Positions 2,240 to 14,102 of a stretch of 48,935 nt of DNA are shown in pieces. Numbering within the stretch: the first letter of the stretch is position 1; each line of letters starts with the position of its first letter. This stretch comes from Stagnimonas sp. (GTDB lineage Bacteria > Pseudomonadota > Gammaproteobacteria > Nevskiales > Nevskiaceae). The stretch lies in NCBI GenBank assembly GCA_030652575.1, contig JAUSQI010000172.1, positions 1-48,935 on the forward strand. Direction: 5' to 3'. The position numbers and the translations under genes are program-made. The notes under the pieces were generated by a model. The model was not told where the DNA came from, did not search any database, and saw nothing but the letters and a program-made list of their open reading frames with translations.

Positions 2240-2989
2240 TCAGGCTCGCGAGTCCTGTCGCAGGCTGCGTTCGCGGCGGATCACCAACGCGGCCCCGAAC
2301 GGCACCATCAGCGCCAGACCGAACCAGGTCAGCGCGTAGACGAGATGGCTGTTGTGAAAGCGCACCACGGTCAGGCCGCCGATGGGGCCGCCCTCAATGG
2401 TCGCGGCCGCGTCGACGAAGTAGGGGGCCACTTCGCGCGCGGGCAGGCCGCGTGCGGCGGCGATGGCCGCGACATCGCGCGAGTACCAGCGGTTGTTCGC
2501 TAGATCGTTGTGGCGCAGGAATCCACCTTTCGGCTCGGTCAGTCGCAGCAAGCCTTCGACGCTGACTGAGCCGGCCACTTGCCCCTCGGCGCGAGTGGTG
2601 GCATCGCGTTTCTGCATTTCAACGAAGCCGCGATTCACCAGCAGCCACCAGCCATCGCTCGTATGCAGTGGCGTCACCACCCAGCAGCCGGGTCCGCGTT
2701 CGGTGACGGCCTGTGTGCAGGCTTCGAGGTCGTGTCGGAACTCGCCTTCGACGCGCACACGGCGATAGGCATCCGCAGGCGCGATACGGGGCCAGTCGGC
2801 AGGGCCAGGTGCAGCAACCGGCGCTGCGGCCAGCATGCGTTCGGTGCGGGCGATGAGGTCGAGCTTCCAGCTCAGGCGATGCAGCTGCCAGATGCCCAAG
2901 AACATCAGCCCTGCAAAGCTCGCGACGGCCAGCAGCGCAAGCAGCGTCCTGGCAACGCGGCTCAGCGGCCGGGCAGGCTCGGCATCCAT
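2240..2989 (-). CDS. SURF1 family oxidase assembly protein
   Basis: A 249-residue protein with the SURF1 plan: an N-terminal membrane helix ending in G-I-W-Q-L-H-R-L, a periplasmic domain containing V-N-R-G-F-V and a late N-R-W-Y-S-R-D motif, and a C-terminal helix (Y-A-L-T-W-F-G-L-A-L-M-V-P-F-G). SURF1 proteins assist heme insertion into heme-copper oxidases, classically heme A into cytochrome c oxidase. Here the gene starts 10 bp after cyoD, in the place where many operons carry cyoE, so the likely client is this quinol oxidase. That client assignment is inference from position. Confidence 0.9.
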   Translation of the reverse strand: MDAEPARPLSRVARTLLALLAVASFAGLMFLGIWQLHRLSWKLDLIARTERMLAAAPVAAPGPADWPRIAPADAYRRVRVEGEFRHDLEACTQAVTERGPGCWVVTPLHTSDGWWLLVNRGFVEMQKRDATTRAEGQVAGSVSVEGLLRLTEPKGGFLRHNDLANNRWYSRDVAAIAAARGLPAREVAPYFVDAAATIEGGPIGGLTVVRFHNSHLVYALTWFGLALMVPFGAALVIRRERSLRQDSRA

Positions 2990-2999
2990 CTCGAAGCGC

Positions 3000-3416
3000 T
3001 CAAGGCGCCTGCCGCATCTCGTGGGCGTCCATCGGCATCATGTTCTCGTTCATGTGGTACATCACCCACAGCGAACCCGAGAGCGTAATGACCACCAGCA
3101 CGGCGGTGAAGATCAGCGCCAGCATGTTCCAGCCACCTTCGGAACTTGTGTTCATGTGCAGGAAATAGATCATGTGCACGAGGATCTGCACGAAGGCGAG
3201 GGCCATGATGATCAGCACCGTCGCCTGCTTGCTGGGCAGCACGTCGCCCATGACCAGCCAGAACGGGATGGCGGTGAGCACGACCGAGAGAATGAAGCCG
3301 GTCATGTAGCCCTTGAAGCTGCCGTGCGGCTCCTGCTCGTCGTGGCCGCCGGTGTCGTGGTGACCGTGAACCTGCGGACTGCCTGCCTCGTTTTCCTTGT
3401 GCATCGCGGTACTCAT
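3000..3416 (-). CDS. cyoD: Cytochrome bo3-type ubiquinol oxidase subunit IV
   Basis: A 138-residue small subunit with three transmembrane helices: [26 protein letters not shown] and [13 protein letters not shown]. The motif H-M-I-Y-F-L-H-M lies between the last two and is typical of CyoD. The N-terminus is unusually His-rich. Subunit IV is not catalytic and is thought to stabilise the CuB site during assembly. The start ATG overlaps the cyoC stop by 4 bp. Confidence 0.93.
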
Positions 3417-4039
3417 CGCAGCACTCCCATCAGATAGACGAAGGTGAAGACGCCGATCCAGACGACGTCGAGAAAGTGCCAGAACAGGCTGAGGCAGGCG
3501 AGGCGCCGCATGTTGGGCACGGTGAGGCCACGGCGATGCACCTGCGCCATCAGCACCACCAGCCAGACGATGCCGAAGGTGACGTGCAGGCCGTGGGTGC
3601 CGACCAGAGTGAAAAAGGCCGACAGAAAGGCGCTGCGCTGCGGGCCCGCGCCCTCATGGATCAGGTGATGAAACTCATAGAGTTCGAGCGCGATGAAGGC
3701 GATGCCGAACAGGCCGGTGATGCCGAGCCAGACCAGCGTCGCAGTCTGGCGCTTGCGCGCCATCTCCAGCATGGCGAAGCCGTAGGTGATCGACGACAGC
3801 AGCAGCATGGAGGTATTGACGGCGACCAGCGGCAGGTCGAACAGATCCTTCGGGCCGGGGCCGGCGGCATAGCTGCCGCCGAGCACGCCGTAGGCGGCGA
3901 ACAGCACCGCGAACAGCAGGCAGTCGCTCATCAGATACAGCCAGAAACCGAGCAGCGTGGCGTTCTCGGGGTGATGATCTTCGCGCAGGTAGAACGAGTT
4001 GCGCTCTTCCGGGCTGAGTGTGGTGGCAAGGCTGCTCAT
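3413..4039 (-). CDS. cyoC: Cytochrome bo3-type ubiquinol oxidase subunit III
   Basis: A 208-residue heme-copper oxidase subunit III with five predicted helices, the usual count for quinol oxidases. The conserved [16 protein letters not shown] start and the [13 protein letters not shown] motif with paired histidines are present, and the end [13 protein letters not shown] is characteristic. It has no metal centres of its own and supports the proton path and stability of subunit I. It begins one base after the cyoB stop codon. Confidence 0.95.
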
Positions 4040-4040
4040 G

Positions 4041-6059
4041 TCAGGACCTCAGTGCCGAAAGCTGACGGGTTCGCGTGTCTTCGATGTCCGTCACCTCGTT
4101 CGCGTGGATGTGGAAATCGCGGTCGTAATTGAAGGTGTGGCCAATGGCCGTGCCGATCAGCGCCACGAAGCTCAAGCCGGCCAGCCACCAGATGTGCCAG
4201 ATGAGTGCAAAGCCCAGCACCGCGCTGATGCCCGCCAGGATGATGCCCGCCGAGGTGTTGCTTGGCATGTGGATGTCGACGTAGCCATCGCGCGGACGCT
4301 CGTAGCCACGGGCCTTCATGTCGTGCCAGCTGTCGAGTTCGTGCACGCGCGGCGTGAAGGCGAAGTTGTAGGCAGGCGGCGGTGAAGAGGTAGACCATTC
4401 CAGCGTGCGGCCGCCCCAGGGATCGCCACTGTCGTCGCGCAGCGCCTCGCGGCGTTTGAAGCTGACGTAGAGCTGGATCAGGAAGGCCAGGATGCCGAAG
4501 CCGATGAGCACGGCACCGAAGGCGGCGACGACGAAGAAAGGTTGCAGGCTCATGTCCTCGAAGTGCGAGACGCGCCGCGTTACGCCCATCAGGCCCAGCA
4601 CGTAGAGCGGCATGAAGGCGAACAGGAAGCCGATCTGCCAGAACCAGAACGAGACACGGCCCCAGAAGTCGTCGAGCTTGAAGCCGGCCACTTTCGGGAA
4701 CCAGTAGTTGATGCCCGCGAACACGCCGAAGATCACGCCGCCGATGATGACGTTGTGGAAGTGCGCGATCAGGAACAGCGAGTTGTGCAGCACGAAATCC
4801 GCCGGTGGCACGGCGAGCAGCACGCCGGTCATGCCACCGATGACGAAGGTGAACATGAAACCCATCGTCCACAGCATCGGCACCTCGAAGCGGATGCGGC
4901 CGCGATACATCGTGAACAGCCAGTTGAACATCTTCGCGCCTGTAGGGATCGAGATGATCATCGTGGTGATGCCGAAGAAGCTGTTGACGCTCGCACCTGA
5001 GCCCATCGTGAAGAAATGATGCAGCCACACGAGGTAGCTGAGGATGGTGATGACCACCGTGGCGTAGACCATCGAGGCATAGCCGAACAGGCGCTTGCCG
5101 CTGAAGGTGGAGACCACCTCGGAGAACACGCCGAACAGCGGCAGGATCAGGATGTAGACCTCCGGGTGGCCCCAGATCCAGATCAGGTTCACGTACATCA
5201 TGGCGTTGCCGCCGAAATCGTTGGTGAAGAAGTGCGTGCCGACGTAGCGATCGAGCGACAAGAGACCCAGCACGCCGGTGAGCACGGGGAAGGCCGCGAC
5301 GATCAGCACGTTGGTGCAGAGCGCGGTCCAGGTGAAGATCGGCATCTTCATCAGCGTCATGCCCGGCGCGCGCATCTTGATGATGGTGGCGAGCAGGTTT
5401 ACGCCAGAGAGCAAGGTGCCGACGCCCGCGATCTGCAAGGACCAGATGTAGTAATCGACGCCGACCCCGGGACTGTAGGCGATGCCTGATAACGGCGGAT
5501 ACGCAAGCCAGCCCGTGGTCGAGAACTCGCCGACGAACAGCGACACCATCACCAGCGCCGCACCCGCCGCAGTCATCCAGAAGCTGAAGTTGTTGAGGAA
5601 GGGGAAGGCCACATCGCGCGCGCCGATCTGCAACGGCACCACGTAGTTCATGAGCCCGGTGACGAAGGGCATGGCCACGAAGAAGATCATGATCACGCCG
5701 TGCGCCGTGAAGATCTGGTCGTAGTGGTGCGGCGGCAGATAGCCCATCGAATCACCGAAGGCCAGCGCCTGATGCAGTCGCATCATGATCGCGTCGGCGA
5801 AGCCGCGGATCAGCATGACGATGCCGAGCACCATATACATCACGCCGATCTTTTTATGGTCGATGGTGCAGAACCAGTCACGCCACAGCCAGCCCCAGGC
5901 CTTGGCGCGGGTGATCTGCACCAGCACGAACACGCCCAGCAGTGCGGCGCCGACAAAGGTGGCGAGCAGGATCGGCTCGTGGAAGGGGATCACGTCCCAG
6001 CTCAGGCGGCCGAAGATGGCCTGCATCAGCGGTGAGCGTTCGGTGGGCTCGATGGTCAT
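4041..6059 (-). CDS. cyoB: Cytochrome bo3-type ubiquinol oxidase subunit I (catalytic)
   Basis: A 672-residue proton-pumping subunit, similar in length to E. coli CyoB (663). All six heme and copper ligands are visible: His in [10 protein letters not shown] (low-spin heme), W-G-H-P-E-V-Y-I (CuB His with the cross-linked Tyr), V-W-L-H-H-F-F-T (two CuB His) and L-I-A-H-F-H-N-V (high-spin and low-spin heme). It reduces oxygen to water using ubiquinol. It starts about 30 bp after cyoA. Confidence 0.97.
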
Positions 6060-6089
6060 GGCGGTTCTCGGTATCGGTCGTTCGCCGCG

Positions 6090-7166
6090 TCAGCGCAGCG
6101 GGCTGTAGCGCGGCGCGTCGCTGCGGGTGGCTTGCAGTTGATCGGGGCTGATCTGGCAGAGGGCGAGCACGTAGCTGTCCTCGTAGGCGCCGCGGCCCGG
6201 CTGGCGTGGCTGGTCGTAGGTGAGGCGGGCGACGTTGTAGACGTTGTTGAGGCCCAGGCCGCCCTTGGCATCGATGCGCATCATGTCGCGCATGCACATC
6301 TTGGTCGGCTCGACACAGAGGTTGAGGATGGCGTCGTAGAGGCCGGCCATCGTGCTGCCGTAATGGCGCACGGGTTCGCGCTCGCTGGGTTTTTCCAGCG
6401 CCTGGTAGGCCTCGCGGGTCAGCGCCTCCGGCTTGGCGCGCACGTCGGCGACCCAGCGGTCGAAACCTGCGCCGTCCAGGGCCGCAAAGCGGAAGCGCAT
6501 GTGCGAAAAACCCGCGCCGCTGTAGTTGGCCGAGAAGCCCTCGTAATCGCCGGCCTTGTTGATGATGGCGTGCAGCTTGGTTTGCATGCCGGGCATCGCG
6601 TAAATCTGCCCGGCGAGCGCCGGGATGAAGAACGAGTTCATCACCGTCGAAGAAGTGATCTCGAATTCGATCGGCACGTCCACGGGTGCGGCCAGCTCGT
6701 TGACGCTGGCGATGCCGTAGTCGGGATAGAAGAACAGCCACTTCCAGTCGAGTGCGACCACCTGCACCTTCAGCGGCTTGATGTCCGCCGGTAGTGGGCG
6801 CATGGCATCGATGCGACCGAGCTTGCGGAACGGGTCGAGCGTGTGGGTGGCGATCCAGGTCACGGCGCCCAGCGCGATGACGATGAGCAGCGGTGCAGCC
6901 CAGATCAGCAGTTCGAGCTGCGTGGAGTGGTGCCAGTCCGGCGTGTGCTTGGCCTTGGTGTTGCTGGCCCGGTAGCGCCAGGCGAACACGCCGGTCATCA
7001 CCATCACCGGCACCACGATCAGCAGCATCAGCACGGTGGAGATCACGATGAGATCGCGCTGCTGCACCGCGATGTCGCCCGAGGGCGCCATCACCACTGC
7101 ATTGCAACCCGTCAGCAGCGCAGGCAGCAACAAGAGCAGAAGGCAGCGGGTGAGGCGGGCGGCCAT
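6090..7166 (-). CDS. cyoA: Cytochrome bo3-type ubiquinol oxidase subunit II
   Basis: A 358-residue lipoprotein subunit. The ATG at 7166 is chosen because a strong AAGGAGG (7173-7179) sits 7 nt upstream and because it gives a clean lipoprotein signal with lipobox L-L-T-G-C; the frame stays open further upstream but that part is not signal-like. Two membrane helices follow (V-L-M-L-L-I-V-V-P-V-M-V-M-T and L-L-I-W-A-A-P-L-L-I-V-I-A-L). The cupredoxin-like domain lacks the CuA cysteine/histidine set, as expected for a quinol rather than cytochrome c oxidase. The C-terminus has the C-V-E-P-T-K-M-C-M pattern. First gene of the operon. Confidence 0.95.
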   Translation of the reverse strand: MAARLTRCLLLLLLPALLTGCNAVVMAPSGDIAVQQRDLIVISTVLMLLIVVPVMVMTGVFAWRYRASNTKAKHTPDWHHSTQLELLIWAAPLLIVIALGAVTWIATHTLDPFRKLGRIDAMRPLPADIKPLKVQVVALDWKWLFFYPDYGIASVNELAAPVDVPIEFEITSSTVMNSFFIPALAGQIYAMPGMQTKLHAIINKAGDYEGFSANYSGAGFSHMRFRFAALDGAGFDRWVADVRAKPEALTREAYQALEKPSEREPVRHYGSTMAGLYDAILNLCVEPTKMCMRDMMRIDAKGGLGLNNVYNVARLTYDQPRQPGRGAYEDSYVLALCQISPDQLQATRSDAPRYSPLR

Positions 7167-7222
7167 GACAAACCTCCTTGAAAGCGATGGGCTTACTCTA
7201 GGCGCACGCCCTGCCATCCGCG

Positions 7223-7274
7223 ATTGGACGTTTTGTCCTATGTCCATCGCCGCGACATCATGCGATGGTCCAAT
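7223..7274. promoter_or_regulatory. Nested inverted repeats in the cyoA/MFS divergent region
   Basis: The 145-bp gap between cyoA and the divergent MFS gene holds several palindromes. ATTGGAC (7223-7229) is perfectly inverted as GTCCAAT (7268-7274). Inside lie GGAC/GTCC (7226-7229, 7235-7238) and CCATCGC/GCGATGG (7244-7250, 7262-7268), all perfect. The inner part reads GCGACATCATGCGA, loosely like RegA-type GCGAC...CGC sites. A role as operator for one or both genes is inferred from position; no clean -10/-35 pair was recognised. Confidence 0.45.
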
Positions 7275-7311
7275 TCTCTGAAAGGGCACCGAGCCCCAGC
7301 GCGAGACCTTT

Positions 7312-8640
7312 ATGCCGATTGCCACGCATCCGTCACCAGACCGTCCCGTTCAGGATGACCCCAGTGCCCATGTTTCACCGGGCGAGATCGCCATCGGTGT
7401 GATTATCGGCCGCCTGTCGGAGATGTTCGACTTTTTCGTGTTCGGCATCGCCTGCGTGCTGGTGTTTCCGGCGGTGTTTTTCCCGCACGTCGATAGCCAG
7501 ACCGGCACCTTCTACTCCTTCGCCCTGTTTTCGCTCGCCTTCGTCGCACGCCCATTCGGCTCGCTGCTGTTTCGCATCCTGCACACACGCTATGGCCGCG
7601 GCACGCGGCTGACCATCGCGCTGTTCGCACTCGGCACCGGCACGGCCGGCATCGCCTTCGTGCCCGGCTATGCCACGTTGGGCACCTACTCGATTGCGAT
7701 CCTCGCCTTCATGCGCATCGTGCAGGGGCTGGGTATCGCAGGTAGCTGGGATGGCCTGCCATCGCTGTTGGCACTCAATGCACCGGAGAACCGCCGCGGC
7801 TGGTACGCGATGATCCCGCAGCTCGGTGGTCCGATCGGCTTCCTGATCGCCGCCGGCCTCTTTGCTTTTCTGTATTCGTCACTGTCGCTGGCGGACTTTC
7901 TCGACTGGGGCTGGCGCTATCCTTTCTGCGTCGCCTTTGCGATCAATGTCGTGGCGCTGTTCGCAAGACTGCGGCTGGTGGTAACGCCCGAGTTCACCGA
8001 GTTGCTGAAGACGCGCGAGCTGGATCCCTCGCCGTTGGGCGATCTGTTTCGCACCCAGCGCGCCAGCATCGTACTGGGTGCCTTCGCACCGCTGGCCAGC
8101 TTTGCGCTGTTCCATCTGGTGACCGTCTTCCCGCTGTCCTGGGTCACCTTGTTCAGCGATCAATCGGTGGTCGATTGCCTCATCGTGCAGATGTTCGGCG
8201 CGGTGCTCTGCATCGTCAGCATGCTGTTGTCCGGGCAGGTGGCGGATCGCATCGGCCGCCGCGCCACCTTGGCCATCGGCGCAGGGCTGATCGCGCTGTT
8301 CAGTCTCGTCGGCCTGCTGCCGGTGTTTCTGCAGGGCACGCCGCTCGGCGCACTGCTGTTCGTGCTCGGTGGCTTCGTGCTGCTCGGCTTCTGCCATGCC
8401 CAGGCAGCCGGTGCGATCAACTCCACGTTTCCGAGCCAGTACCGCTACAGCGGTGCAATCGTCACGTCGGACCTGGCCTGGCTGTTCGGGGCCGCTTTCG
8501 CGCCTTTGGTGGCGCTGTTCATCGCCGCCAATTTTGGCGTCGGCTACGTGGGGCTTTACCTGCTTTCAGGATCGGTCGGGACACTGCTTGCACTCGGAGT
8601 GAACCGCAGTCTTGAGATGCGATCCGAACGGGACCAGTGA
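7312..8640 (+). CDS. MFS transporter, metabolite:H+ symporter-like
   Basis: A 442-residue protein with about twelve hydrophobic helices. The region E-M-F-D-F-F-V-F-G in helix 1, the R-x-L-x-x-R-Y-G-R-G loop after helix 2 and D-R-I-G-R-R between helices 8 and 9 are major-facilitator signatures. F-V-A-R-P-F-G and the acidic 'E-M-F-D' helix 1 point to the MHS (citrate/alpha-ketoglutarate/proline symporter) branch. The substrate cannot be read from sequence. It is divergent from cyoA and may share its control region. Start ATG at 7312 has only a weak ribosome site. Confidence 0.85.
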   Translation: MPIATHPSPDRPVQDDPSAHVSPGEIAIGVIIGRLSEMFDFFVFGIACVLVFPAVFFPHVDSQTGTFYSFALFSLAFVARPFGSLLFRILHTRYGRGTRLTIALFALGTGTAGIAFVPGYATLGTYSIAILAFMRIVQGLGIAGSWDGLPSLLALNAPENRRGWYAMIPQLGGPIGFLIAAGLFAFLYSSLSLADFLDWGWRYPFCVAFAINVVALFARLRLVVTPEFTELLKTRELDPSPLGDLFRTQRASIVLGAFAPLASFALFHLVTVFPLSWVTLFSDQSVVDCLIVQMFGAVLCIVSMLLSGQVADRIGRRATLAIGAGLIALFSLVGLLPVFLQGTPLGALLFVLGGFVLLGFCHAQAAGAINSTFPSQYRYSGAIVTSDLAWLFGAAFAPLVALFIAANFGVGYVGLYLLSGSVGTLLALGVNRSLEMRSERDQ

Positions 8641-8731: not shown

Positions 8732-9082
8732 TCAGGCAATCGCCTTGAGAACTTCCGCAACCATGAAGGGCTTGGGCAATATGCCCGCGAAGGTGAACTC
8801 GCCGAGCTTGGCTTTGGCGAGATCCGGACGGCCTGAGATCACCAGCACGCGAGACTGCGGGTGCAATTCGTGAAAGCGTTTGACGACGTCGAAGCCATCC
8901 GGGCCGTGGCCGAGATTGAAATCGGTGATCAACACATCGACCTCTTCGAGCTGCGCCGCGGAATCGGTGGCGCTGGCTCCATCGCTCACGGCCAGCACGC
9001 TATGGCCCTCTTCGACGAGGCAGTCCTCCAGAAACTCCCTGATGATCTGATCGTCTTCCACAAGAAGAATGCGCTTGCTCAT
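8732..9082 (-). CDS. Stand-alone CheY-like receiver protein
   Basis: A 116-residue single receiver domain with E-D-D near residue 10, phosphoacceptor Asp in V-L-I-T-D-F-N-L-G (about 53), S/T switch in V-I-S-G-R-P and Lys in L-P-K-P-F. There is no output domain. The ATG at 9082 is preferred over an upstream GTG (9097) because GGAG lies 9 nt before it. The motif D-F-N-L-G-x-G-P-D-G-F resembles receivers that accompany hybrid kinases. No cognate kinase is adjacent. Its role (phosphate shuttle or sink) is unknown. Confidence 0.85.
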   Translation of the reverse strand: MSKRILLVEDDQIIREFLEDCLVEEGHSVLAVSDGASATDSAAQLEEVDVLITDFNLGHGPDGFDVVKRFHELHPQSRVLVISGRPDLAKAKLGEFTFAGILPKPFMVAEVLKAIA

Positions 9083-9178
9083 GCTTAGGTTCTCCACGGC
9101 AGCGGAGGCCAGATTGGCCCACCAATCAGCATGCAGTAGACGTCAGGCTGCTGAGCCGCCACTGAAAATGTCGCCTGG

Positions 9179-9300: not shown

Positions 9301-9669
9301 CTAGATTTCGAGATCGGCGGTTGCGTTGTCGACCGCCGCCAACAGGTCGGATGCGACAAATGGTTTCCCCAGAATGACGGCACGGCGCCCGTTGGCCAGG
9401 CGCTTCCTCGCGCTGTAGGGAAGACCGGTGATCATCAAAACCGCCATTCGCGGCTGCCGGTTCTGGAGGGTCACCGCGATATCGGCACCGTCCATCGTCG
9501 CGCCCAGATTGAGATCGGCGATGAGCAGATCGAACTGCGGGTCGCGCCCTGCGGCTTCAAGCGCGCTGTCGGGGGAGACCGCTGTAATGACCTCGTGACC
9601 ATCATCAATCAGGCAGGCCTGCACGAAGCGGCTCACGGCCTCGTCGTCCTCCACCAAAAGTATTCGCAT
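9301..9669 (-). CDS. Second stand-alone CheY-like receiver protein
   Basis: A 122-residue receiver domain: E-D-D near residue 9, phosphoacceptor in L-L-I-A-D-L-N-L-G (about 53), T in M-I-T-G-L-P and K-P-F near 106. There is no output domain. It is clearly paralogous to the receiver encoded 220 bp downstream (same D-x-N-L-G and G-x-P switch region). ATG at 9669 is preferred; an in-frame GTG two codons earlier (9675) cannot be excluded, as neither has a strong ribosome site. Confidence 0.83.
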   Translation of the reverse strand: MRILLVEDDEAVSRFVQACLIDDGHEVITAVSPDSALEAAGRDPQFDLLIADLNLGATMDGADIAVTLQNRQPRMAVLMITGLPYSARKRLANGRRAVILGKPFVASDLLAAVDNATADLEI

Positions 9670-9810
9670 CGCCACTTACCCGGCCGTCGTTGTTTATTTG
9701 ATGGCACCGAAATATCGCAAACAGCCGACTTGCAGATGAATGATCGAGTTGGCACACGTTGCGATGGTCGCATGAGGCAGATTGGGGCCCCCGAAGTGGC
9801 GCGCTTCAAA

Positions 9811-9849
9811 TGCGAATGACTTTCATCCGGGTGCTATCCCGCGTATGAT
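9811..9849 (+). promoter_or_regulatory. Putative Fur-regulated promoter of the heme operon
   Basis: TGCGAATGACTTTCA (9811-9825) matches 11 of 14 fixed positions of the 7-1-7 Fur consensus (TGATAAT-N-ATTATCA). It overlaps a possible -35 (TTTCAT, 9821-9826) that is 17 bp upstream of a good -10 (TATGAT, 9844-9849). The site lies about 70 bp before the HugZ-like start. Match counting was by eye; iron control is inferred from the match and the heme genes downstream. Confidence 0.5.
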
Positions 9850-9919
9850 CTGAACATCAGCCAGCCGGTGGCGAACGCGCCCAGCCAGCCTCCTCATTTA
9901 TATGTTCGGAATCGCTGGC

Positions 9920-10675
9920 ATGACTGATAAAAATCCCAAGATCGCGCGCGATGCGCGTCGCCTGATGCAGTGCGTTTCGCATGGCGTGCTTTCCACCCAT
10001 TCCCTGGCGGTGGAGGGTTATCCATTCGGCAGTGTCGTCACCTTTGCCACCGATGCCGCGGGCCAGCCGGTGCTGCTGCTCAGCGACATCGCCCAGCACA
10101 CCGCCAACATCAAGGCAGATGCCAGGGTCTCGCTGACGCTCGCCGAGCCGAACGACGATCCGCAGGCCGGCGGGCGCCTTACGCTGATAGGCGATGCCGA
10201 GCTCATTACCGACCCTGGCAGCTCGGGCATCGCCGATCGCTACCTGCGGCGTTTTCCGGCGGCGGCGCAGTACCACGAAGCGCATGACTTTGCCTATTAC
10301 CGCCTGCGCGTGCTCAAGGCCCGCTTCATCGGCGGCTTCGGGCGCATCCACTGGGTGTCGGCAGAAGGCATTCAGTTTGCCAACCCCTTCCTCGGCGAGT
10401 CCGAGCGCGGCATGTGCGCGCACATGAACGATGACCACGTCGATGCCATGCGCGATTTCTGCCGCATGGCGGGTGTGGAAACCACCGACACCGAGGCGCC
10501 GCAGATGAGCGGCATCGACCCGGAAGGCTGCGACCTGCTGCTGGGCAAGAAGCTGTTGCGCTTCGAGTTCGATGCGCCCGCCCTCACGCCCAAGGAGGTG
10601 CGCATGGCGATGGTCGCGCTGACGCGACGCGCGCGCAGTGCGGCAGGGCAGGCCAACGCCGTACTCGCGGCATGA
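9920..10675 (+). CDS. hugZ: HugZ-like heme oxygenase (PNPOx-like fold plus DUF2470)
   Basis: About 251 residues from the ATG at 9920 (GGAA nearby); an in-frame ATG at 9902 would add six residues. Residues ~8-150 form a split-barrel pyridoxamine-phosphate-oxidase-like domain (S-H-G-V-L-S-T, G-Y-P-F-G-S-V, D-I-A-Q-H-T-x-N). The C-terminal ~80 residues are a DUF2470-like domain with C-A-H-M-N-D-D-H-V-D-A-M. This pairing defines the HugZ family, which binds heme and cleaves it to release iron in the cytoplasm. The gene overlaps the TonB receptor gene by 4 bp, supporting a role in heme use. Confidence 0.85.
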   Translation: MTDKNPKIARDARRLMQCVSHGVLSTHSLAVEGYPFGSVVTFATDAAGQPVLLLSDIAQHTANIKADARVSLTLAEPNDDPQAGGRLTLIGDAELITDPGSSGIADRYLRRFPAAAQYHEAHDFAYYRLRVLKARFIGGFGRIHWVSAEGIQFANPFLGESERGMCAHMNDDHVDAMRDFCRMAGVETTDTEAPQMSGIDPEGCDLLLGKKLLRFEFDAPALTPKEVRMAMVALTRRARSAAGQANAVLAA

Positions 10676-12759
10676 ACCCGACGCTGCACCGCTGGGGCGC
10701 ACGGCTGCCACCCCGATGGCGCGCCCGCTTGCAGCGCGTGGCAAAGCTCGGCTTCTGGTTTTTCTTCATCAAGGGAATGCTCTGGTTGCTGGTGCCCGTC
10801 GTGCTTGCGCTGTGGGCCACCGAGGCGGCGACACAGGACGCACCCCCTGCCGCCATTGCCGTGCAGTCCCTCGGCGCCAACGAGGGAGAGGCCGAAGTCG
10901 AACGACGCGAGCGCGCCGTGCGGCTGGAACAGGTGGTGGTCACCGGCACCCGCACCGCGCACACGCTGAGCGATTCGCCGGTGGAGGTGCAGCTCATCAC
11001 CGCCGCGCAGATCAAGGACAGCGGCGCACGCGATGTCGCCGAGCTGCTCGAACGCGAAGGCGGCGTGACGGTGACGCGCGTTGCCGGCCGCGGCACCTCC
11101 ATCGAGATTCAGGGCTTGTCGTCGGATCAGGTGCTGATCCTCATCGACGGCCGCCGGGTGGTGGGGCGTATCAACGGCGCAATCGACCTGACCCGGCTCA
11201 AGGCCGCGAACATCGAGCGCGTCGAGATCGTCAAAGGGCCTTCTTCCGCGCTCTACGGCAGCGATGCGCTGGGCGGCGTGGTGAATGTCATCACCAAGAG
11301 CGGTGGGTCCGGCAGCACGGTGACGGCGCGCGCCGACAGCGGCAGGAACATGGAAGCCTTCGGCGGCGTCGCCTACGAGCGGGCGCGATCCGGCGGCAAC
11401 GTCACTCTCGGCGGCACGCTCACCGACAGCTACGACCTCGACAAATCCACACCTTCCACCGACGGCATCACCGGCAACACGCGGTTTGCCGCGCTGAGCC
11501 ACACCCAGCGCTTCTCGCCCGGTGCGAGCGTGCGCGGCACGCTGGACTACTCGCTGGACGACACCTCCCGCGTCGATGCGGGCTCGGCCGTGTTCGACAT
11601 CGTCAAGCGCATTGAAGAACTGCGCCTTGGCCTGGCGCCAGAGTTCACGCTGGGTGCGGACACCAGCCTCGTGCTCGATGGCTATTACACCCGCTATTAC
11701 GATCAGTTCCTGCAGGACCAGCGCGGTGCCGATGCCAACGATCGTGTCGAGAAAACCGTCGATCAGCTTTATGTCACGGGTGCTCAGCTCAACCATCGCC
11801 TGGGCCGTCACGCACTCAGCGTGGGGCTGGAGGCGCAGTTCGAGACACTGACTGCCGATCGCCTCGCCACCGACGGCGAGCGCGACCGGCAGTCAGTGTT
11901 TCTGCAGGACGAGTTGCGCCTTCTGGCCGATGACGCGCTCACGCTGGTGCCCGGTGTGCGCTACGACCGCGACTCGCAGTTCGGCGATGCGCTCTCGCCC
12001 AAGCTGGCACTGCGTTACAACTTCAGCCCCGAGCTGTTCGTGCGTGTCGGCGCAGGGCAGGGCTATCGCGCGCCGGACTTCAAACAGCTGCTGCTGCGTT
12101 TCGACAATCCCGCGGTGGGCTATCGCGTCGAGGGCAATCCCGACCTCAAACCCGAGCGCAGCACCGGCTTCAATGTGGGCGCGACCTGGTACGCCAATGC
12201 CGGCCTGAGCCTGAGCGGCACGGTGTTCCACAACCGGGTGAAGAACCTCATCGACATCGTGCAGCTCACGCCGGGGCGGCCGACGCCGGGCGACCCGGTG
12301 ATCTTCGGCTACGTCAACATCGCCCGCGCGCGGTTGACGGGCAGCGATGTGCAGATCGAATGGCGGCCCGCGCTCGATGCCCGGCGGCCGCTGTCGCTGC
12401 GGGTCGGCCACGGCTATCTCGACAGCGAGGACGCCGACACCGGCCAGCCGCTTTCGGGCCGCGCCAGGCATCGCGCCAATGCCGATATCGGGTGGCGGCA
12501 AGCGGAGTACGAGCTGGGATTGCGCGGCGTGTGGATCGGCAAGCGCATCTTCCAGACCGAACTCGATACCGGCGGCGCACCGACCGGTGCCGGCACCGCC
12601 GATCCCTACTTCCTGTTCGACACCCGCGCGCAGTGGAAAGGCTGGCGGGTCTTCGATGTCAGCGTCGGCGTGCAGAACCTGTTCGACGAGGGCGAGCCGC
12701 GCTTTCTGCCGATCCAGCCCCGCAGCGTTTTCTTTGAATTGAGCAAGGATTTCCCATGA
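10672..12759 (+). CDS. TonB-dependent outer-membrane receptor, probably for heme
   Basis: A 695-residue receptor. A TonB-box-like stretch (L-E-Q-V-V-V-T-G-T-R) near residue 85 precedes the plug domain, which shows D-V-A-E-L-L-E, V-L-I-L-I-D-G-R-R-V and the I-V-K-G-P-S-S-A-L-Y-G-S-D-A-L-G-G signature. The C-terminal ~490 residues form the beta-barrel and end in F, with Y-R-A-P-D-F-K and N-P-D-L-K-P-E-R motifs. Residues 1-48 are odd: a long basic stretch, then G-F-W-F-F-F-I-K-G before the hydrophobic core, unlike a normal signal peptide. An internal ATG at 10777 would give a shorter leader. Substrate is inferred from the flanking HugZ and HmuY genes. Confidence 0.88.
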   Translation: MNPTLHRWGARLPPRWRARLQRVAKLGFWFFFIKGMLWLLVPVVLALWATEAATQDAPPAAIAVQSLGANEGEAEVERRERAVRLEQVVVTGTRTAHTLSDSPVEVQLITAAQIKDSGARDVAELLEREGGVTVTRVAGRGTSIEIQGLSSDQVLILIDGRRVVGRINGAIDLTRLKAANIERVEIVKGPSSALYGSDALGGVVNVITKSGGSGSTVTARADSGRNMEAFGGVAYERARSGGNVTLGGTLTDSYDLDKSTPSTDGITGNTRFAALSHTQRFSPGASVRGTLDYSLDDTSRVDAGSAVFDIVKRIEELRLGLAPEFTLGADTSLVLDGYYTRYYDQFLQDQRGADANDRVEKTVDQLYVTGAQLNHRLGRHALSVGLEAQFETLTADRLATDGERDRQSVFLQDELRLLADDALTLVPGVRYDRDSQFGDALSPKLALRYNFSPELFVRVGAGQGYRAPDFKQLLLRFDNPAVGYRVEGNPDLKPERSTGFNVGATWYANAGLSLSGTVFHNRVKNLIDIVQLTPGRPTPGDPVIFGYVNIARARLTGSDVQIEWRPALDARRPLSLRVGHGYLDSEDADTGQPLSGRARHRANADIGWRQAEYELGLRGVWIGKRIFQTELDTGGAPTGAGTADPYFLFDTRAQWKGWRVFDVSVGVQNLFDEGEPRFLPIQPRSVFFELSKDFP

Positions 12760-14102
12760 ATCGCATCGCACTCCCTCTGGCTGCTGCGTGGCTGCTTTCG
12801 GCTTGCGCGGGCGAACTGCATCTGCCGCCCTCCACTGCGGTGGAGGGCGACCCGGTCGCCACCCCGACACTGCCCGGCCCCGGCGGCGCGCAATCGAGCT
12901 TCGCGGCCAGCGGCAGCAGCCTCTACACCGGCAAGGTCGACGCCACCGGTGCGGACTGGATCTATCTCGATCTCGAAACCCAGAAACAGATCGTGCCGGC
13001 CAACCCGGCCGCCAGCGGTGACTGGGATCTCGCGTTCAAAGGCAGCGAGGTGAAGCTCAATGGCGGCAGCAGCGGCACGCCGCCGGGTGGTCATGCAGTG
13101 CGCCTGTTTGGCGACAAGGTGGCCGAGGGCGTGGTCTATCCGTTCGCGCAGATCACCGGCGCACCTACTGAGACGGCCGTCGAATACCAGACCGACACGC
13201 TCACCGCCGCCGGCCCGCTGGATGGTCTGATCCCCGGTTTGAGCACGGGCGGGCAGCCGGTCTATGCGATGACCACCTATCCCGAGGCCGACCAGAGTCC
13301 AGGCGCCGTTACCCGCGCGGGCGACTACGGCTGGTACCGCGATGCGGGCCTGGCCGGCATGAATGCGATCACCGTGCGCGGCAACGTCGCCTATGTCATC
13401 CGCAGTGTCGAATGCCGTTACTACAAGCTGCGCATGACCGCCTACGCCGATGCCGGCGGTGTGGCGGGCCATCCGGCGTTCGAGTTTGGCGAGATTCCCG
13501 GCCCGGTCTGCAGCAGCGGCGGTGGCAGCAGCGCGGTCGCACCACTGGGTCGTGCGGTGTTCACCGCCACCAGCAACAGCTGGAAGATCGCCATCGACGC
13601 CACCGACGAGGATGCCTGGGTGCATATCGACCTCACCGCCGCGCAGCAGGTGGTGCCGAGCAACCCGGACAACGACGCCAACAGCTGGGACATCGCCTTC
13701 AAGCGCACCGACATCAAGGCCAACAGCGGTGCCAGCGGCAGCGGCACGGTGGCGATCGCCGATGGCCTGCGCGACAGCTGGGAGACCCGCACGGCGGCCT
13801 ACACCGACACCGCGAAATATCACGTCGATGCAGCCGATGCGCTGGCCTTCATCACCTATCCGGCCGCCGAGCGCACGGGGGATACGGCCTGTGGCGGCAT
13901 CAACAGCGACTTTGGCTGGTACTACTATTCGGGCTTCTGCAACGATGGCGACGGCGTGCATCACATCAGCCCGCGCGAGGTGGTCTACGTGGTCAAGGGA
14001 CGCGACGGCAACTACTGGAAACTGCGGATGCTCGACTACTACGACGCGGCGGGCAGCTCGGCGCATCCCTCGGTCGAGTTCGCACCGGTGACCAAACCCT
14101 GA
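12756..14102 (+). CDS. Lipoprotein with two tandem HmuY-like heme-binding domains
   Basis: A 448-residue protein with a lipobox (L-L-S-A-C). Two homologous halves follow. The first (about 40-245) has W-D-L-A-F-K and Y-Y-K-L-R-M-T-A-Y; the second (about 256-448) has W-D-I-A-F-K-R-T and Y-W-K-L-R-M-L-D-Y-Y. Both also show a V-V/I-V-P-x-N-P element and the late G-H/A-H-P-x-x-E-F motif. These are the hallmarks of HmuY, a surface hemophore-like lipoprotein known from Porphyromonas, where one domain is usual. Four Cys outside the lipobox could form disulfides. Heme ligands cannot be assigned by eye. The start overlaps the receptor stop by 4 bp. Confidence 0.82.
   Translation: MNRIALPLAAAWLLSACAGELHLPPSTAVEGDPVATPTLPGPGGAQSSFAASGSSLYTGKVDATGADWIYLDLETQKQIVPANPAASGDWDLAFKGSEVKLNGGSSGTPPGGHAVRLFGDKVAEGVVYPFAQITGAPTETAVEYQTDTLTAAGPLDGLIPGLSTGGQPVYAMTTYPEADQSPGAVTRAGDYGWYRDAGLAGMNAITVRGNVAYVIRSVECRYYKLRMTAYADAGGVAGHPAFEFGEIPGPVCSSGGGSSAVAPLGRAVFTATSNSWKIAIDATDEDAWVHIDLTAAQQVVPSNPDNDANSWDIAFKRTDIKANSGASGSGTVAIADGLRDSWETRTAAYTDTAKYHVDAADALAFITYPAAERTGDTACGGINSDFGWYYYSGFCNDGDGVHHISPREVVYVVKGRDGNYWKLRMLDYYDAAGSSAHPSVEFAPVTKP

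Follow-up and report, generated by a model that had tools for sequence, protein, structure and literature searches.

A probable Fur-regulated heme-acquisition operon with a two-lobed HmuY lipoprotein in Stagnimonas sp.

The window (the whole 48,935-nucleotide stretch of Stagnimonas sp. DNA analysed here) carries a three-gene operon that probably serves Fur-regulated heme acquisition, in which a lipoprotein formed from two HmuY lobes would hand heme to an outer-membrane receptor. The genes, both predicted HmuY folds and a Fur-like site are shown, as is a conserved linkage of the receptor, HmuY and HUG, the product of the first gene, to which one relative adds ABC genes. Work on HmuY proteins has dealt with Bacteroidota, largely oral and gut species; the double-domain form proves to be the normal one in Gammaproteobacteria, where it is apparently undescribed.

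The operon belongs to a 3.44-Mb draft genome from the Nevskiaceae, whose congeners include Stagnimonas aquatica, and contains the following features.

9807 to 9829, forward strand: Fur-box-like palindrome CAAATGCGAATGACTTTCATCCG, from a weight matrix made from relatives' operons.
9844 to 9849, forward strand: possible -10 element TATGAT, weak, from the sequence.
9902 to 10675, forward strand: HUG, a split barrel (CREG/PNPOx) with a C-terminal DUF2470 by Pfam, a heme-handling protein of the PA4388/HOZ type.
10672 to 12759, forward strand: TonB-dependent receptor ORF, 695 aa, Plug and TonB barrel by Pfam.
10672 to 10818, forward strand: small single-span membrane protein (SMP), the ~48 N-terminal residues of the receptor ORF, fused in frame; a separate ORF in three congeners and also found after HUG in others.
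12756 to 14102, forward strand: tandem-HmuY lipoprotein, 448 aa, with Cys17 in the lipobox LLSAC; PF14064 at 127.4 bits (cut-off 27) in two stretches by Pfam search.
12891 to 13502, forward strand: HmuY lobe 1, residues 46–249, by iterated profile and fold match.
13551 to 14096, forward strand: HmuY lobe 2, residues 266–447, by iterated profile and fold match.

The original prediction had described three genes joined by 4-bp overlaps, and the three ORFs are indeed present with both ATGA overlaps, one between HUG and the receptor (10672–10675) and one between the receptor and HmuY (12756–12759); for HUG, 9920 is a possible alternative start to 9902. A scan of the locus for promoters and terminators found no site. 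Divergent from the operon, on the reverse strand, are two stand-alone response-regulator receiver domains (8732–9097 and 9301–9675 of the window), and a few kb upstream, on the same strand, lie terminal oxidase genes (COX1, COX2 and COX3 type subunits) with the SURF1 assembly factor (2240–7325).

That the third gene encodes a tandem-HmuY lipoprotein, as had been proposed, is confirmed by the PF14064 profile, the predicted fold of both halves and the lipobox. Each lobe alone exceeds the PF14064 cut-off in a whole-genome profile search (61–63 bits), which detected no further HmuY in the source genome beyond these two, and the lipobox Cys17 is invariant in an alignment with 13 relatives. An AlphaFold2 model built on a 14-sequence alignment (mean pLDDT 77, pTM 0.50) predicts the HmuY fold in each half, its low pTM meaning that the placement of the lobes relative to one another is not fixed by the model. 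The modelled C lobe matches 3h8t (P. gingivalis HmuY, Z 19.3) and 8b6a (B. fragilis BfrB, Z 18.2), the modelled N lobe matches 6r2h (PinO, Z 14.2) and 6eu8 (Tfo, Z 12.5), and the fold search returned no clear match outside the solved HmuY proteins. By sequence, the nearest solved HmuY is BfrB.

Among genomes from the genus, family and order of the window, 21 of 61 encode HmuY; across the class 14 of 369 do so, and in a sample of the phylum 7 of 398; about 4% of the gammaproteobacterial species sampled carry it. Two lobes were found in 30 of 32 gammaproteobacterial HmuY proteins by an iterated profile, which was trained on the same 32-protein set, the second-lobe E-values being nonetheless 1e-26 or lower, and the two non-tandem proteins are much longer, combining a single lobe with additional domains. 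The HmuY proteins known from Bacteroidota are single-lobed, with solved chains of ~190–240 residues. The two-domain fusion described originally is real, but it is not exceptional, and the idea of the tandem protein as an oddity is rejected. A search of the accessible literature for HmuY in Gammaproteobacteria found nothing on the topic. Proteins of another architecture, unusual for HmuY, are encoded in loci L072 and L073 (also L113 and L114), where, in proteins of ~760–785 aa, a HmuY lobe is followed by PKD-type-looking repeats and a further C-terminal region; a second HmuY-like gene lies alongside.

The gene neighbourhood of HmuY is conserved. Every one of the 14 Nevskiales loci compared has a TonB-dependent receptor next to tandem HmuY, as do all 14 loci fetched from elsewhere in the class (28 of 28 overall). 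HUG is a neighbour in 11 of the Nevskiales loci. It lies upstream in some of these and downstream in others, and the association is therefore more than the inheritance of a single gene arrangement. The strongest link of tandem HmuY to heme is an operon from a gammaproteobacterium of another order (L120), which encodes on one strand the receptor, tandem HmuY, a periplasmic binding protein, a FecCD permease, an ATPase and HUG. The best model for this ATPase is the heme ABC ATPase, at 237 bits slightly below the cut-off of 261. These in-line ABC genes, the Fur-like box and the linkage of receptor, HUG and HmuY together support the initial view of the locus as an operon for heme capture, import and use.

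A Fur-like palindrome is present upstream of 13 of 14 related operons. With a Fur-type weight matrix made from 12 related operons, the window being left out, the site at 9807–9829 scores 22.1 bits on the forward strand and 19.2 on the reverse, and no other site in the 49 kb exceeds 12.3; as the matrix sites were picked by similarity to the Fur consensus, this result indicates a shared operator of Fur type, not Fur binding. No ABC permease, HutX or TonB gene is attached to the operon, as had been remarked, but this is true only locally: contig C5 of the same genome carries an unlinked set of hemP, a FecCD permease (hmuU) and an ATPase (hmuV), the last exceeding the heme equivalog cut-off (281 versus 261). 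The missing attached importer is thus a matter of gene order.

The first gene had been named HugZ, a name rejected both by score, at 52.7 bits against an equivalog cut-off of 240 (TIGR04109), and by a swapped domain order, the DUF2470 part aligning at the opposite end of the chain. In HUG, a barrel (residues 14–155; CREG beta-barrel and PNPOx in Pfam) precedes DUF2470 (169–240), both domains over their cut-offs, and its best matches are PDB 2arz (PA4388, 6.5e-60), the heme-binding MSMEG_6519 (1.6e-25) and Arabidopsis AT3G03890 (8e-22). HUG thus shares its N-terminal split barrel and following DUF2470 with PA4388, plant HOZ and GBP, and MSMEG_6519, differing in that its gene is linked to those for tandem HmuY and an outer-membrane receptor, whereas with the heme oxygenases HugZ and ChuZ it shares the two domains but not their order, and it falls far under their family cut-off. 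Split-barrel DUF2470 proteins include the heme-binding or heme-degrading HugZ, ChuZ, MSMEG_6519 and HOZ, and in a survey of the two domain orders, HugZ and the plant HOZ group both degrade heme, with GBP a heme-sensitive regulator (PMC11014987). Heme propionates are contacted by His136 and Arg166 in HugZ, and by His64 and Arg92 in Pden_1323 (PMC8131568). Judging from alignments, HUG seems to keep this His and Arg (in IAQH and GGRLTL), and it probably degrades heme.

The second ORF is a TonB receptor, as originally annotated, with both Plug and TonB barrel, but its N-terminus is unlike that of its relatives. Three congeners encode, in this order, HUG, a separate 48-residue one-span protein (consensus LAQLGFWFFLIKGLLWLTVPLALAWW) and a receptor that lies in a different frame and has a signal peptide of its own. 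Compared with these, the window lacks ~46 nt net (counted from alignments), covering the SMP stop and the receptor's signal peptide; two frames have been made one, with a junction near the expected signal peptidase site (ATEA/ATQ), and the overlap of HUG with the receptor is therefore the old overlap of HUG with SMP. The SMP span may have become the signal peptide of the receptor, an arrangement known from one draft genome, and a receptor start at Met36 is an alternative to the SMP-fused start. An assembly or sequencing artefact of the draft, concealing a true order of four genes (HUG, SMP, receptor and HmuY), would explain why the fusion occurs in this genome only, none being found in closer relatives among five genomes of the genus, and why the ORFs of the three congeners are separate and differ in frame. 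It is nevertheless unlikely, as it would need a net loss across the SMP stop and signal peptide rather than a single-base slip, and no signal peptide was seen in the other frames. SMP has no family in Pfam or NCBIfam, the window's N-terminal segment giving a sub-threshold DUF4013 match (14.5 versus 26.9 bits); in L034–L036 its gene follows HUG at the operon end, and it also occurs elsewhere without HmuY. Relatives of SMP are found in unrelated contexts in L099–L103; the one in L099 has a PepSY-like protein and a TonB receptor close by. The L034 receptor ORF (about 5500–7578 in flipped coordinates) has, unlike its relatives, an apparent N-terminal STN-type signalling extension, which hints at sigma/anti-sigma control.

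In P. gingivalis HmuY, H134 and H166 hold the heme iron; its homologues have Met ligands, a mixed pair or no iron ligand (PMC8911585, PMC12106395). When 62 HmuY lobes were aligned, no His or Met was present at the H134 and H166 positions of either lobe of the window protein: the former column is Asp or Glu in both lobes of the window protein and its close relatives, the loop alignment here being uncertain, and the latter is Gly in both window lobes and nearly all close relatives, with N-lobe gaps in three and Ala in one. The earlier idea that the protein binds two hemes is consequently left without sequence support; heme may, as was also suggested, be relayed to the receptor. The receptor contains both YRAP and NPDL motifs, with no conserved His between them in the window or in relatives, and its best subfamily model, the heme receptor TIGR01785, scores 234.2 bits, below the cut-off of 316.85. 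These points, with receptor matches to Cir and BtuB and a HUG unlike HugZ, all weigh against heme. Import of a tetrapyrrole or iron compound other than heme (a siderophore, cobalamin or a metal-free porphyrin), with the HmuY lobes as diverged binding modules, would accommodate the missing ligands, the best PDB sequence matches of the receptor being Cir and BtuB, and the 200 bits that it scores against the B12 receptor model. It would also suit the closeness to BfrB, which binds heme or porphyrin without iron coordination, as some HmuY homologues do, while BfrC binds neither heme nor protoporphyrin (PMC12106395). This is quite improbable, however, since the L120 operon holds HUG and heme-type ABC genes with tandem HmuY, the Fur-like box argues for iron, and the heme model is the best subfamily match of the receptor; no paper linking BtuH or cobalamin to HmuY was found in the literature. 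If heme is the ligand, there is a substantial chance, a little short of even, that a single lobe binds it, the C lobe being the binder and the N lobe a spacer or a dock on the receptor. The C lobe is better conserved (69% versus 61% mean column identity), with His356, His402, Cys395 and the motif GWYYYSGFC invariant in 14 close sequences, but the N lobe is also well conserved and has invariant residues of its own. His356 and His402 are candidates for a different ligand site.

Under the preferred heme reading, we infer the ligand, its surface display, the order of transfer and heme degradation as follows. When iron is short, Fur would leave the box at 9807–9829 and the three ORFs would be co-expressed. 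From its anchor in the outer membrane, the double-HmuY lipoprotein would bind heme or another porphyrin in a pocket that uses neither the His/His pair of Porphyromonas nor Met ligands, and pass it to the receptor encoded directly upstream, which would import it with TonB energy. The unlinked HmuU–HmuV ABC importer would then carry heme across the inner membrane to the cytoplasmic HUG, which would receive and probably degrade it.

The closest known systems are P. gingivalis HmuY–HmuR and its Bacteroidota homologues (Tfo, PinO, Bvu and BfrA/B/C), which share the HmuY fold, the lipoprotein anchor, and a gene next to that for a TonB-dependent receptor carrying YRAP/NPDL motifs. The present operon differs in having two lobes per chain with no His or Met at the known positions, and HUG with a Fur-type box in place of in-line HmuSTUV genes. 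It resembles the hemP–hmuTUV operons of Gram-negatives in that its genome has hemP–hmuU–hmuV, unlinked, and in that a relative (L120) has ABC genes in the same operon as tandem HmuY, but is distinct from them in including a HmuY-type surface lipoprotein. More speculatively, and rather doubtfully, gammaproteobacterial HmuY proteins may form their own branch of obligately two-lobed surface lipoproteins, with non-canonical ligands such as His356 and His402 and an inter-lobe relay to a dedicated receptor, which in this strain took SMP as its signal sequence. With this operon, the function of a second lobe, the binding of heme in the absence of the known ligands and the transfer of cargo from such a lipoprotein to a TonB receptor could be studied in a free-living system, and DUF2470 proteins of swapped domain order gain a clear operon context.

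Two further loci contain parts of this gene set: in L097 (5150–6009) HUG and SMP occur without HmuY or receptor, and in L096 (5973–6957) HUG has a C-terminal remnant of HmuY next to it, which suggests operon decay.
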